A stretch of 64,000 bases of DNA, from the NCBI RefSeq assembly GCF_020991415.1, contig NZ_JAJMOY010000001.1, forward strand, positions 558,001 to 622,000, written 5' to 3'. The DNA comes from Flavobacterium sp. ENC. Lineage in GTDB: Bacteria > Bacteroidota > Bacteroidia > Flavobacteriales > Flavobacteriaceae. The position numbers and the translations under genes were made by a program. Below, piece by piece: positions 3,375-54,668 of the stretch. Every line of letters begins with the position of its first letter. Position 1 is the stretch's first letter. The notes under the pieces were generated by a model. The model saw only the letters and a list, made by a program, of their open reading frames with translations. It was not told the origin of the DNA and did no database searches.

Positions 3375-5576
<2,202 letters not shown>

Positions 5577-13525: not shown

Positions 13526-13672
13526 TTAAACGCAAAGCACGCAAAGCTTTTGATCTTGCAGTACGGTCAGAAAACGCAAAGTTCGCAAAGCTAGTTCAAC
13601 ACCAAGCTTTGCGAACTTTGCGTTTTTATAAAATGGCTTACTTTAAAAATCTTTGCGTGCTTTGCGGTTAAA
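13526..13672. repeat. Nested palindromic repeat, family B (CGCAAAG type)
   Basis: There are two nested inverted repeats. The inner arms AACGCAAAGTTCGCAAAGCT (from 13573) and AGCTTTGCGAACTTTGCGTT pair perfectly over a 12-nt loop. The outer arms AAACGCAAAGCACGCAAAG (13529-13547) and CTTTGCGTGCTTTGCGGTT pair around them. The same two-layer design recurs at 31036-31133 and near 37855-37968. The stretch from 13290 to 13772 holds no other recognisable element. Confidence 0.8.
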
Positions 13673-13772
13673 TAATTAAAAGCCTCAACGAAGAATAATC
13701 CAAAAAAGCATCTTTATCATTGTTAAATTTATAATTTCACCTCCGGAAAAGTAAAATTATTTGCGAAAACGT

Positions 13773-13781
13773 TATATTTGC
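13773..13781 (+). promoter_or_regulatory. Promoter -7 element of the threonine dehydrogenase gene
   Basis: TATATTTGC matches the Bacteroidota -7 consensus TAnnTTTG. No good -33 TTG is visible at the usual distance. It lies 19 bp upstream of the ATG at 13800 and downstream of a TTG at 13761 that would extend the frame, which argues for the ATG as start. Confidence 0.6.
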
Positions 13782-13799
13782 AATACTAAATCGAAACAA

Positions 13800-14738
13800 A
13801 TGAATCCAAAAATATTGATCATTGGGGCATGCGGTCAGATTGGGACTGAACTGACCCAAAAACTTCGCAAATTATACGGAACGGAAAATGTTATCGCTTC
13901 TGATATCCGAAAATTAAACACAGACGTCGTTAATTCCGGACCTTTTGAAGTGGTCAATGCTTTAGATTTCAATCAAATTGAACATCTTGTTGAAGTACAT
14001 AAGATTACGGATATTTATTTAATGGCGGCACTTTTGTCTGCTACGGCCGAAAAGAATCCGGCATTTGCCTGGGACCTGAATATGAACTCATTATTTCATG
14101 TTCTGAATCTGGCTAAAGCGAAGAAAATCCAAAAAATTTTCTGGCCCTCCAGTATTGCCGTTTTTGGCCCTACAACTCCAAAAGAAAATACGCCGCAATA
14201 TACCATAATGGAGCCTTCTACTGTTTACGGAATTAGTAAACAGGCAGGGGAAAGATGGTGCGAATATTACCATAATATTTATGGTGTTGACGTTCGAAGC
14301 ATCCGTTATCCGGGTTTAATCAGCTGGTCTACTCCTCCGGGCGGCGGAACTACCGATTATGCTGTTGATATTTTTTATAAAGCGATTGCCGATAAAAAAT
14401 ACGAATGCTTTTTATCATCAGAAACCAAAATGCCAATGATGTATATGGATGATGCTATTGAAGCGACTATCAATATCATGAAGGCTCCGGCGGAAGATAT
14501 TAAAATACACTCTTCTTATAATTTAGCTGCCATGAGTTTTACTCCAACTGAAATTGCTGCAGAGATCAAAAAACATATTCCTGAATTTGAGATTACGTAC
14601 AATCCGGATTTCCGTCAGAAAATTGCAGACAGCTGGCCTGCCAGTATCGATGATGCTGAGGCGAGAAAAGACTGGGGATGGCAACATACTTTTGATCTGG
14701 AATCGATGACTAAAGATATGCTGGAACATCTGGGGTAA
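13800..14738 (+). CDS. tdh: L-threonine 3-dehydrogenase, short-chain (SDR) type
   Basis: 312 residues. It oxidises L-threonine with NAD+ to 2-amino-3-ketobutyrate in the cytoplasm. The Rossmann motif GACGQIG is at residues 9-15 and the catalytic Tyr143-xxx-Lys147 pair is in YGISK, with Ser118/Ser119 in PSSIAVFG. The sequence closely resembles, from memory, the extended-SDR threonine dehydrogenase of Flavobacterium frigidimaris, including IRYPGLISWSTPPGGGTTDY and the C-terminal SWPASIDD. It is not the zinc-dependent MDR-type Tdh of E. coli. The start at 13800 is preferred because a -7 promoter element lies just upstream of it. It is monocistronic, ending in a strong terminator; no kbl (glycine C-acetyltransferase) gene is adjacent. 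Confidence 0.93.
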   Translation: MNPKILIIGACGQIGTELTQKLRKLYGTENVIASDIRKLNTDVVNSGPFEVVNALDFNQIEHLVEVHKITDIYLMAALLSATAEKNPAFAWDLNMNSLFHVLNLAKAKKIQKIFWPSSIAVFGPTTPKENTPQYTIMEPSTVYGISKQAGERWCEYYHNIYGVDVRSIRYPGLISWSTPPGGGTTDYAVDIFYKAIADKKYECFLSSETKMPMMYMDDAIEATINIMKAPAEDIKIHSSYNLAAMSFTPTEIAAEIKKHIPEFEITYNPDFRQKIADSWPASIDDAEARKDWGWQHTFDLESMTKDMLEHLG

Positions 14739-14759
14739 TTTAAAAAACCTTACTGTTTG

Positions 14760-14790
14760 AAGCGGATTATTTTAAAATAATCCGCTTTTT
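14760..14790 (+). terminator. Intrinsic terminator of tdh
   Basis: A perfect palindrome with arms AAGCGGATTATTTT / AAAATAATCCGCTT is followed by TTTTTC. It starts 21 bp after the tdh stop codon. Confidence 0.9.
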
Positions 14791-14839
14791 CTTTGTAAAA
14801 TATATTTTTCCGACAAATAGATAGCGCTATATAATTTCT

Positions 14840-51763: not shown

Positions 51764-52165
51764 ATGAGCACAGCAACAAAACCAAATCATATAGGCCGAA
51801 AAATCAGCCGTATTCGTGAACTTCGTGATATGAAGCAGGAAGCATTGGCACAGGCTTTAGGCACCAATCAACAAGCTATTTCGATTATTGAAAACAGCGA
51901 AACAATTGATGAAGAAAAACTGATAGAAGTTGCTAAAGCACTTGGTGTAACAGCAGAAGCCATTAAAAATTTCTCTGAGGAAAATATGACTAATTATTTC
52001 AATACTTTTAATGATACTGATTTTAGCAGTAGTCAGGGAGCTTTCAGTCAAAATCATCAATGCTCATTTAATCCTCTTGATAAAGTGGTGGAACTTTACG
52101 AACGTTTGGTTCTGGCTGAAAAAGAAAAAGTTGAATATTTAGAAAAATTGTTGAAGGAGAAGTAA
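51764..52165 (+). CDS. XRE-family helix-turn-helix regulator
   Basis: 133 residues. The HTH domain spans about 10-65: GRKISRIRELRDMKQEALAQ then LGTNQQAISIIENSETIDEE and a helix ending EAIKNF. A polar linker (NTFNDTDFSSSQGAFSQNHQ) leads to a short C-terminal coiled coil (VVELYERLVLAEKEKVEYLE), probably for dimerisation. It has its own promoter and a strong terminator. The palindromes at 52285-52352 just beyond its terminator are possible operators, but its targets are unknown. It could control the DyP operon that converges on it, or itself. Confidence 0.9.
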   Translation: MSTATKPNHIGRKISRIRELRDMKQEALAQALGTNQQAISIIENSETIDEEKLIEVAKALGVTAEAIKNFSEENMTNYFNTFNDTDFSSSQGAFSQNHQCSFNPLDKVVELYERLVLAEKEKVEYLEKLLKEK

Positions 52166-52192
52166 TTCTTTTTAAAACATAGCATTTATATA

Positions 52193-52227
52193 AAAGAGAG
52201 ATCTCGTCTGAGATCTCTCTTTTTTTG
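52193..52227 (+). terminator. Intrinsic terminator of the XRE gene
   Basis: Stem AAAGAGAGATCTC / GAGATCTCTCTTT with a GTCT loop followed by a run of T. It begins 28 bp after the stop codon. Confidence 0.92.
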
Positions 52228-52421: not shown

Positions 52422-53948
52422 TTAATTCACAGTAAGCGGCGGCGGAATTATCCCTTGCGAGATGTATTTCAACCCTGAGATTCCGGGTAAAAACAAATAC
52501 AAACTTCCGTCTGTACGTACAAAACGCGTCAGGTTTGGGGTTTCTGTATAAGTTCCCTTTTCATTATAAGCAAAGACAAAATTATCCGGACTGCTATCGT
52601 CGGCCTGTGGTCCAAAAATTGGGTCTACTCCGCTATAATTTGGCGATGCATCGGGATTTCTAAAACCGCCTTGTTCTAACCAGAGCCTCGTCACAAAGCG
52701 AAACTGAAAATCAAGAACAGCACCAATAAACAATCCAACCAATCCGCGTTGTATGCCGGGTTTTTCAGCAGGATCATAAACGGGTCCGTACGGCGATGCG
52801 CGTCTTACAATACGATGCGTTTCGGCGTTATCATCATTCCCTTTTACGTTTATATCATCCCGCGGGTTTGCTCTTCGGATGTGCGCTGCATACGGACATT
52901 TTAAGGCGAGTTCGTCACTGCTTTGATCGCCTTGCTGGTTTGGGCTTGGCGTTAAGTAATTGAAATTCGTAAAATTAAAATTTTTGGTACTGGGTTCTCC
53001 CAGGCTTTTATCTTCCTTGTCAGGAGATACCACAAGAGGTGTACCGTCACGCCAGCGTCCGCACATTTTTGCAGCCATTAATTCGGGCGAGATTTCAGTG
53101 TTGGAATGGATAAATCTATTGAATTTGGCTTCGTCCTGATACAACAATCGAAACGCCGAAAAGGTACCGTTTACCAATAAAGTATGGGCATAATAATCCT
53201 TCGCCTGTTGGCTGATCACAAAACGATCGAGTGGTACTTTTGGCCGGTCATCGATACTGCTGATGCCCATTAATTTTCGCATCTTGGGCTTTTCCCATAT
53301 AATATCATCAATGCGGGGCTGAGACAGACTATCGCGATACCCAAAATGTACATAATCTGAATTTCCATCGACTGTAACAGGATCTGAATCCTGATAATAT
53401 ACCGGAATTACAGCTGGCCCTGATGGTGTTTCTGTGATCATACCCAGCAAAGCCGCATAGTATTTTTCTCTGTTTTCAGCGGTCAAAGTAAAAAGCGTTA
53501 TTTGAATATGAAGCTCACTGCCATTGGCAGTTGGTGCTTCTTTTGGTATCCAGCCTCCGTTTTTCCACCAGTTCGCCGGAGCACTCTCTCCGGTATCACC
53601 CATTTGTCCGGCATCTTCTACGGCTCCTTTTTTAAAGGATTTAAACACTTCGCGACTTGAATGCCGTTCTACTGCTTTACTATTAGCTGTACCTATAAGC
53701 TTTTCTAAACCTGCATACGTAAAACCAATATTAAGACAATAGTCCGGTTTTTCCATGTTTTCCCACGGCTCTGCATTGGTTATCAACAAACCACCGGGAG
53801 CAGTTCCCGAAGCCAGGTCTGCACAAAACTGTTTTGCTCCGTCAGTATTTTTTATACTGAAAATAATATATCTGATATGAGGAAAATTATAGCCCCGCAA
53901 TATTAATCCCTGTATATCATTCATCTCAATTTGACTGGAATTACTCAT
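52422..53948 (-). CDS. DyP-type heme peroxidase, long form
   Basis: 508 residues with no signal peptide. The proximal heme ligand is His356 in CPYAAHIRRANPRD. The distal GxxDG motif reads GYRDS (203-207): Asp206, needed for peroxide cleavage, is kept while the last Gly is Ser. RASPYGP and RGLVGLFIGAVLDFQFRF lie downstream as expected for the second ferredoxin-like domain. The length and inserts place it with the longer DyP class (C/D-like) rather than short EfeB-like enzymes. It follows the gene for a 229-residue protein by 30 bp. There is no encapsulin gene nearby and no recognisable encapsulin-targeting tail. Confidence 0.9.
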   Translation of the reverse strand: MSNSSQIEMNDIQGLILRGYNFPHIRYIIFSIKNTDGAKQFCADLASGTAPGGLLITNAEPWENMEKPDYCLNIGFTYAGLEKLIGTANSKAVERHSSREVFKSFKKGAVEDAGQMGDTGESAPANWWKNGGWIPKEAPTANGSELHIQITLFTLTAENREKYYAALLGMITETPSGPAVIPVYYQDSDPVTVDGNSDYVHFGYRDSLSQPRIDDIIWEKPKMRKLMGISSIDDRPKVPLDRFVISQQAKDYYAHTLLVNGTFSAFRLLYQDEAKFNRFIHSNTEISPELMAAKMCGRWRDGTPLVVSPDKEDKSLGEPSTKNFNFTNFNYLTPSPNQQGDQSSDELALKCPYAAHIRRANPRDDINVKGNDDNAETHRIVRRASPYGPVYDPAEKPGIQRGLVGLFIGAVLDFQFRFVTRLWLEQGGFRNPDASPNYSGVDPIFGPQADDSSPDNFVFAYNEKGTYTETPNLTRFVRTDGSLYLFLPGISGLKYISQGIIPPPLTVN

Positions 53949-53978
53949 AGTTTATCTTCATTAAGATTAGATTCAAAA

Positions 53979-54668
53979 TTATTCGCAATCCGGTTTTTGG
54001 GCTTTCGGAAAATTATAACTCACCTCACCCGGAACCGCTGGCCATACTTTATCGGCATTTGGATAGTTATCAATAATTTTTGCTACTGTAAGTCCCGGAA
54101 AATTGGTGCCAAAAACATATTTTCCTTTTTTATCTCCTGCTGAGAAAACGGGATCACCAAAATTGTAACGCATCAGCAAGCAGTAAAATGCTGCTGCATT
54201 TTTAACCACTCCGCTATTTTCGTCGTTTTTTTTCTTTTTTATAAATTTTGCAGATGTTGGTCCGTCTGGGTCTACACCCGGAATTCCCTCTTCATCTATA
54301 AACTGCAACAGGCCGTCTAGACCATCCACAATTTGCTCTATCTTGAAGAACGAGCTGATATAATCATCGAATTGCCCGTCATAGATGGACATAACCACCA
54401 ATACATCTTTTCCCGGATAAGACTGAAATCCCGGAACAGGTATTCCCGGAGTTGGAGTTCCGTCTGCCTGCGCATAAATGGTAAAATAATGGACACCGGT
54501 TGTTTTACGGGGATCTCCGGTTGGAGCGGTTAACAAAGCTACAGCTTCTTTAGCTTTTTGAACTTCTCCCATTGCCTGGGTTAGAAAACCTTTTTTCAGA
54601 GGAATAAATAAAAATAACAGATGCTGTTGATCTGTAATGGGTACTGTGATTACTTTGGGTGTTGACAT
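53979..54668 (-). CDS. Uncharacterised 229-residue protein paired with the DyP peroxidase
   Basis: 229 residues with no signal peptide or membrane segment; cytoplasmic. I do not recognise a named family. The middle has VHYFTIYAQADGTPTPG followed by DVLVVMSIYDGQFDDYISSF, a strand-turn-strand-helix pattern that recalls dimeric alpha/beta-barrel (ferredoxin-like) proteins, the fold DyP also uses. The N-terminal half is helical (TQAMGEVQKAKEAVALL) and the C-terminus ends FPKAQKPDCE. It is the first gene of a two-gene operon with DyP. A role as partner or redox/heme-handling accessory is inference only. Confidence 0.75.
   Translation of the reverse strand: MSTPKVITVPITDQQHLLFLFIPLKKGFLTQAMGEVQKAKEAVALLTAPTGDPRKTTGVHYFTIYAQADGTPTPGIPVPGFQSYPGKDVLVVMSIYDGQFDDYISSFFKIEQIVDGLDGLLQFIDEEGIPGVDPDGPTSAKFIKKKKNDENSGVVKNAAAFYCLLMRYNFGDPVFSAGDKKGKYVFGTNFPGLTVAKIIDNYPNADKVWPAVPGEVSYNFPKAQKPDCE

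Follow-up and report, generated by a model that had tools for sequence, protein, structure and literature searches.

In a 64,000-nucleotide stretch of the genome of Flavobacterium sp. ENC (contig NZ_JAJMOY010000001.1, positions 558,001 to 622,000; "the window" below), the gene for a divergent DyP peroxidase (gene B) follows a gene for a 229-residue protein (gene A). The linkage of the two genes is near certain, and sequence comparison places the pair in a module that runs through a whole group of DyPs, rather than making it a local oddity. That the two products function jointly is likewise nearly certain. We favor, with some reserve, a reading in which they constitute a two-component cytoplasmic DyP, with A probably serving as an obligate accessory subunit that acts on B.

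Co-occurrence of the partner gene with DyP

Within the genus, A was found in 11 of 398 genomes and a DyP in 25, of which 11 showed 74–100% identity, nine showed 34–37%, and five were more distant. The genomes that carry A and those that carry the close DyP are one and the same set of 11, and in each of them tblastn placed the DyP beside A. Directly upstream of each of the nine DyPs at 34–37% identity lies a separate gene of 149–168 aa that carries the landmarks of A (VHY.R..., then L..ITEFDG...YL.AFF). The partner profile A4 matched 20 of the 398 genomes at E ≤ 4e-33, exactly those 11 plus nine genomes whose DyP belongs to the group of B, with the two genes adjacent in every case; this profile contained some of the sequences that it found and is a measure of presence and absence, not of discovery. 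Five weak matches in the genus (E 0.0035–0.009), by eye frames of nonribosomal peptide synthetases and shikimate kinases, were not retained. In nine named loci, the pair was intact and the downstream neighbors varied, with the same peptidase gene upstream in six of the nine. In a sample of 249 genomes from the family, A found, apart from its own genome, a single 500-aa protein from another genus (L012, E 8e-4); that locus has no DyP, and the match was taken as chance.

Bacteroidota beyond Flavobacterium were sampled thinly. When 296 genomes from the phylum were searched for a DyP (E ≤ 1e-10), six matches resulted. The window and genomes G806 and G406 hold A-type pairs, G562 and G879 have a DyP without a partner, and the sixth DyP (G902) is fused to another enzyme, with no partner match in the stretch examined. 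This last gene is an oddity of its own, as the DyP (contig C1, locus L092, around 13636-14799) forms the N-terminal part of a 1313-aa open frame with a pyruvate-formate-lyase-like region (Pfam PFL-like, E=4e-86) in its C-terminal part, so that a heme peroxidase is joined to a normally oxygen-sensitive enzyme.

Outside Bacteroidota, 72,556 plasmid records stood in for chromosomes. The initial clue there was one tblastn match of the 149–168 aa type, at E=2 and 309 bp from a Sinorhizobium DyP. With A itself as the tblastn query, the only plasmid match (E=5) lay under a LysR regulator and was dropped as chance. Among 12 plasmid DyP loci that were read, nine (in Sinorhizobium, Gloeothece, Granulicella, Rhizobium, Microvirga, Nostoc, Deinococcus, Bradyrhizobium, and Paracoccus) have an upstream hypothetical protein with the partner landmarks, and the other three have a larger gene without them. 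Sixteen further plasmid DyPs, fetched as a test, had the partner in 15 cases, the sole exception (L110) being a distant DyP. Three tblastn queries from different partner types found a partner match at E ≤ 0.001 in 59 plasmid records (a count that leaves out the E=2 Sinorhizobium match), and all 59 hold a DyP. Partner and DyP are at most 300 bp apart in 48 of them and at most 1.2 kb apart in 58; in the outlying record, the distance is 7.1 kb, and a second partner place in that record was not listed. Plasmid records holding a DyP number 81, against these 59. The partners at L069 and L105 were missed by tblastn and found with a hidden Markov model (HMM), and the plasmid DyP loci that were read and found without a partner are L068, L070, L071, and L110.

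Altogether, 52 DyP loci were scored, many of them near relatives, and 42 have a partner and 10 do not. Loci L014, L015, L021, L022, and L092 have no row in this count, as the DyP runs off the end of the stretch, and the first four of these are paired by tblastn. The linkage spans Bacteroidota, Pseudomonadota, Cyanobacteriota, Acidobacteriota, Deinococcota, and Actinomycetota, and identities between partners fall as low as 20%. No relative was found on viral contigs. A preliminary description of this DNA, made from its letters, had raised the question whether the 229-residue protein always accompanies DyP and had named homologs occurring widely without DyP as an observation that would refute its proposal of a joint peroxidase system. 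In the sets searched, co-occurrence was complete (20/20 genus genomes and 59/59 plasmid records), and no such scatter of homologs was seen.

In an IQ-TREE analysis of 46 DyPs, a branch with support 98/98 separates the 36 partner-bearing enzymes from the rest. Distances among partners correlate with those among their DyPs (rho 0.66 for 36 pairs and 0.56 for 17 thinned pairs), and none of 1000 and none of 2000 permutations gave a correlation as high. In the scored loci, the DyPs with a partner reached at least 423 bits and those without at most 266, but this clean gap was rejected as a general rule, since two P450-linked DyPs that have a partner score 265 and 225. Despite their low scores, these two fall on the partner side of the tree, with weaker support.

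Gene order, fusions, and neighbors

The arrangement of the pair varies among lineages. At L095, the partner lies downstream of the DyP; in three Streptomyces loci (L097, L100, and L104), 0.8–1.0 kb separate the two, an interval filled in the annotated locus L100 by a 337-aa gene; and in L072, L098, and L109, the genes overlap by 1 nt. In Pararhizobium qamdonense (L111:3911-8182, minus strand), a single 1423-aa protein, annotated only as cytochrome P450, contains a P450 (Pfam E 1e-9), two partner domains (438-581 and 740-882), and a DyP (927-1414). The former partner domain is weak and degenerate, the latter is strong (domain E 2e-23), and the stretch between them looks membrane-spanning by eye. 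In Skermanella mucosa, these parts are spread over three overlapping genes, which encode a 558-aa protein with two partner domains (one strong, the other weak), a DyP, and a P450. Further partner–DyP fusions are likely from sequence matches in seven Sulfitobacter records, where the two matches are 54 bp apart and in six of seven both are named cytochrome P450, and in Novosphingobium aromaticivorans, where they are 63 bp apart under the single name Dyp-type peroxidase domain-containing protein.

Two partner paralogs accompany one DyP in Granulicella (L063:2766-4005) and in Sinorhizobium chiapasense (L096:1764-2381 and 4255-4770). Such paired copies, in tandem or flanking one DyP, might form a heterodimeric barrel.

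A gene annotated as catalase or catalase-family stands beside the pair in 11 of 18 annotated partner loci (L065, L067, L072, L095, L098, L099, L101, L102, L103, L107, and L109). Four of these genes were compared with Pfam Catalase, and those of L095 and L103 pass its cut-off, that of L067 falls below it (E 3e-4), and that of L109 has no match. Other neighbors in some partner loci include oleate hydratase, 3-hydroxyacyl-CoA dehydrogenase, hydrolases, and P450. Together, these neighbors suggest peroxide-linked oxidation of lipids or similar small molecules. No oxidative or lipid genes of this kind were recognized by eye beside the window pair and its close relatives, where no family scan of the neighbors was made, and for the window pair such chemistry is therefore suggested by kinship with the other loci.

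Identity of the two products

Among solved structures in the PDB, B matches DyPs, with DrDyP of Deinococcus radiodurans (8re3) the best at E=3e-32. Its match to TIGR01413 (E=1e-18, 67.8 bits) is under the cut-off of 100.5, and its score against DyP_N (26.2 bits in a protein scan and 28.2 bits in a six-frame search) straddles the cut-off of 27.5; B is therefore a divergent member. With the catalytic Asp, proximal His, and distal Arg retained (Table 1), it is assigned to the DyP family, and heme binding and peroxidase activity are predicted. The preliminary description drew attention to the motif GYRDS in place of GXXDG. The motif is present, and the full fingerprint is indeed not matched, though its Asp is retained. 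As a special trait of this pair, it does not hold up: the fifth residue is Gly in 15 of 36 partner-group DyPs, against 10 of 10 outside the group, and is Gly in both P450-linked fusion-type DyPs. The non-Gly count falls to 6 of 17 group rows after thinning, so kinship inflates the figure of 21/36. Since the fifth position varies across the DyP group, the full GXXDG cannot define the family here.

Gene A was described at the outset as matching no recognizable family, and this is borne out: Pfam and NCBIfam gave none at E ≤ 10, ABM (PF03992) included. A single-sequence search of the PDB returned two matches at E 0.8, which we took as chance, and profile searches of the PDB with small-type, A-type, and mixed partners gave nothing convincing, the best (E 0.027) being an O-acetyl-ADP-ribose deacetylase. 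When 19 partners of other DyPs were scanned together, no Pfam family rose above chance, and the best ABM match was that of one member at E=0.05. What connects A to these proteins is an HMM made from 13 of the partners that accompany other DyPs (four of them from the genus, nine plasmid-borne, and none of the A type), with which A ranks first among the 135 open reading frames (ORFs) of the window at E=1.2e-8, the next being at 0.097. We accepted the homology because this score is good, if not overwhelming, and because A adjoins a DyP. On these grounds, A is classed as a divergent, enlarged member of a partner family that has no name in the Pfam and NCBIfam releases used. Compared with the partners of 150–170 aa, it is larger in its C-terminal half, and unlike the Deinococcus partner, it has no long N-terminal extension.

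Table 1. Positions of the gene pair and of its main features in the window
Feature	Position	Strand	Description and basis
Gene A	53979..54668	minus	229-aa DyP partner protein, enlarged Flavobacterium version; ATG start; ORF and partner HMM
Gene B	52422..53948	minus	508-aa DyP peroxidase; ATG start; placed by trees in the partner-bearing (DrDyP-like, class C/V) group
Intergenic gap A–B	53949..53978	minus	30 bp, from stop of A to start of B
Predicted ferredoxin-like core of A, residues 12-170	54159..54635	minus	Low-confidence AF2 model; hits of a structural aligner, over about these residues, to dimeric alpha/beta barrels
His60 of A (VHY motif)	54489..54491	minus	H in 32/36 and Q or R in 4/36 aligned partners
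Asp97 of A (YDG motif)	54378..54380	minus	D in 34/36 and E in 2/36 aligned partners
Tyr103 of A	54360..54362	minus	Invariant in 36/36 aligned partners; the sole such residue
Pro130 of A	54279..54281	minus	Near-invariant, 35/36 aligned partners
Asp206 of B	53331..53333	minus	Catalytic Asp of the distal motif (GYRDS), equivalent to DrDyP D189; invariant in a 14-row alignment; numbering from the consulted part of PMC10820274
His356 of B	52881..52883	minus	Proximal heme ligand, equivalent to DrDyP H324; invariant in a 14-row alignment; same source
Arg382 of B	52803..52805	minus	Distal Arg, equivalent to DrDyP R348 (matched by eye); invariant in a 14-row alignment; same source

Predicted structure

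A ferredoxin-like alpha/beta barrel had been proposed for A from the pattern VHYFTIYAQ...VLVVMSIYDG, which is present in the protein. A low-confidence AF2 model agrees with this fold, although such agreement is no proof of it. The model has a strand-helix-strand-strand-helix order in residues 15-123; the helices and three of the strands follow one another as expected for the fold (beta-alpha-beta-beta-alpha-beta), and the fourth strand is missing from the model. Foldseek gave no match to it at E ≤ 0.001. A second structural aligner returned mostly ferredoxin-like alpha/beta barrels (ABM, LsrG, NIPSNAP, and IsdG), the best with Z 8.6 over 109 residues at 2.9 Å, a Z that can mean a common arrangement only. 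If the model is right, A shares its core fold with the dimeric barrels of the ABM, NIPSNAP, LsrG, and IsdG families, none of which it matches as a sequence family. We know of no link between these families and DyP.

Setting of the pair in the window

On the minus strand, A lies upstream and B downstream, and each is present as a single copy in the 5.3 Mb genome. The two-gene arrangement of the preliminary description, with its 30-bp gap, agrees with the ORF coordinates, as does its judgment that neither N-terminus (MSTPKVITVPITDQQ and MSNSSQIEMNDIQGL), examined by eye, carries a signal peptide; the span that it gave (53948-54668) takes in A and the gap and leaves B outside. Its remark that no encapsulin gene is present extends to the whole genome, in which a search for PF04454 gave 0 matches, the same search being positive in 3 of 14 control genomes. 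No promoter for A emerged from a scan for promoters and terminators, nor was a complete Bacteroidota-type promoter detected upstream of A. A small Cro/C1-type helix-turn-helix regulator gene (51764-52165, plus strand) is convergent with B, and a close relative of it lies near the pair, on one side or the other, in the Flavobacterium loci L002, L003, L006, and L009. A candidate terminator (52192-52223), made up of a 14-pair inverted repeat and a T run after it, lies between the regulator gene and B.

Comparison with known systems

The closest characterized relative is DrDyP (PDB 8re2/8re3), which both trees place together with B in one DyP group; in the alignment, the Deinococcus entry of these trees (L067) and the solved protein have the same reading. 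B is only about 30% identical to DrDyP, with a small margin over other solved DyPs (115 vs 103 bits), whereas for Nostoc and Streptomyces members of the group the margin is wide (353–399 bits for DrDyP against at most 164 for the others). The fungal class D and other class V DyPs (AauDyP, BadDyP, AnaPX/Alr1585, and DyP2) share the family and heme residues, but their matches to two group members are weaker, at about 74–164 bits. In DrDyP, too, the fifth GXXDG position is replaced (GYKDM), and a partner gene lies directly upstream (WP_051618841.1), ending by annotation 1 nt before the DyP gene.

According to the consulted part of the DrDyP study (PMC10820274), the enzyme was made without the partner, and its heme is six-coordinate and low-spin at pH 7.5; activity is greatest at pH 2.8, nearly vanishes above pH 4, and is absent at physiological pH. 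The abstract asks what might free the heme. When Gly was restored at the fifth position (M190G), the heme was still almost wholly low-spin at pH 7.5, and the residue there is therefore not the cause of the low-spin state (PMC10820274). In the text of that study covered by a term search, no operon, neighbor, gene cluster, or partner is mentioned (PMC10820274). No description of the partner protein was found in the literature covered, largely outside which lie subscription journals and preprints.

Other systems in which a DyP stands beside a second gene differ from this one. Encapsulin cargo DyPs have such a neighbor, but here there is no encapsulin, and A is no capsid protein. EfeUOB is likewise a conserved DyP operon, one for iron transport, in which the DyP (EfeB) is exported as a Tat substrate according to the excerpt of PMC8197335; B differs in having no signal peptide, and no transporter gene was recognized beside it.

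Proposed role of the partner and alternative explanations

In the proposed two-component DyP, B would be the heme enzyme (D206, H356, and R382 being kept), and A would be an accessory subunit with a ferredoxin-like alpha/beta domain, itself no heme enzyme. A would dock on B and be needed for the real activity of B. A stable, lasting complex of the two is likely, in our judgment, and we infer a docking site on B, where A would most likely contact the distal side or the access channel. Peroxide or the true substrate could thereby reach a heme that would otherwise rest in a blocked low-spin state. That A activates B in this way, by unblocking or reshaping access to the heme, is a tentative suggestion. 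The preliminary description had proposed a heteromeric or two-step heme-peroxidase system; the strict linkage to DyP and the fusion protein speak for it, and neither an interface nor a shared heme pocket emerged from a model of the joined A–B chain.

A number of observations weigh against an obligate subunit. The joined chain model is uninformative as to an interface (predicted local distance difference test score, pLDDT, 33.3; predicted TM-score, pTM, 0.30), and that of A, built from ten Flavobacterium sequences, is itself weak (mean pLDDT 52.5, pTM 0.60). DrDyP works at pH 2.8 without a partner (PMC10820274, consulted in part), which shows that some activity does not depend on the partner, and since ten DyPs outside the group have none, DyP chemistry in itself can do without it. 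The kinship of A with the other partners is remote: a profile-profile comparison gave a probability of 26% at E 7e-4; the same 13-partner HMM, in its most permissive mode, also accepted shikimate-kinase-like frames down to E 2e-4; and a profile of the small partners missed A in two genomes that carry it (G000 and G406), so that its zero matches in 247 genomes of the phylum are uninformative. Support for the branch that unites the partner-bearing DyPs drops to 82/91, and to 83% of 200 bootstrap trees, in a 43-row tree that recovers the same split from the 46-row set with two P450-linked DyPs added and five near copies removed; AauDyP, BadDyP, AnaPX/Alr1585, and DyP2 are absent from both trees. 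Lastly, adjacency is also compatible with two enzymes of one pathway.

On that last view, A would be a separate small enzyme of the ABM, NIPSNAP, or cyclase type that makes or consumes the substrate or product of the DyP, perhaps in oxidized-lipid or natural-product chemistry, with no stable complex. The resemblance of the A model to such barrels (best Z 8.6) and the recurrent oxidative and lipid neighbors, among them the catalase-annotated genes, are in keeping with it. However, no genes of such a pathway were recognized by eye beside the window pair and its close relatives, the natural fusion of the partner to DyP speaks against it, and the few residues kept across the family (Tyr103, Pro130, and Asp97) form no catalytic set that we recognize. 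We regard a separate enzyme as rather unlikely, though it is the alternative to be taken most seriously. The fusion bears in the same direction on the idea that A is a heme chaperone or insertion factor, which would load heme into this DyP group and then leave: a permanent bond to the DyP better fits a lasting subunit. The position of A upstream of B, the presence of IsdG and IsdI among the structural matches, and the fact that the heme-handling proteins IsdG, HemQ, and Cld share the ferredoxin-like barrel (excerpt of PMC4835899) would suit a chaperone. Nevertheless, DrDyP made alone contains heme (PMC10820274, consulted in part), and with His60 not universal and no invariant His among the 36 aligned partners, in which Tyr103 alone is fully kept, a heme ligand in A was judged unlikely. 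A chaperone role is thus improbable.

Simple hitch-hiking in an operon, in which the genes are neighbors by descent with no functional link, could draw on the 11 A-type pairs of the genus, which could stem from one event, and on the peptidase gene that recurs upstream in six of nine loci. It is at odds with a linkage that persists across six phyla with changed gene order and partner identities down to 20%, and with the fusion. Hitch-hiking is exceedingly improbable and already refuted within the sets searched.

Implications for the DyP family

What bacterial class V DyPs do physiologically is not established, according to the excerpt of PMC8395514 and, in similar terms, the consulted part of PMC10820274. 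The partner described here is absent from the Pfam and NCBIfam releases used, and, being linked to its DyP and in one case fused to it, it gives a direct and cheap test, which is to add the partner to the DyP. A missing partner may be the reason that such a DyP looks inactive alone. It is possible, if speculative, that the whole bacterial branch of DyPs to which DrDyP belongs (class C, DrDyP-like) is two-component, with a ferredoxin-like subunit that would activate the low-spin heme and bring in the true substrate and that, in some lineages, would be present in duplicate, with hydrophobic stretches as the joints, and in fusion with a P450. If this is true, activity data on DyPs of the branch that were measured alone would describe half an enzyme.

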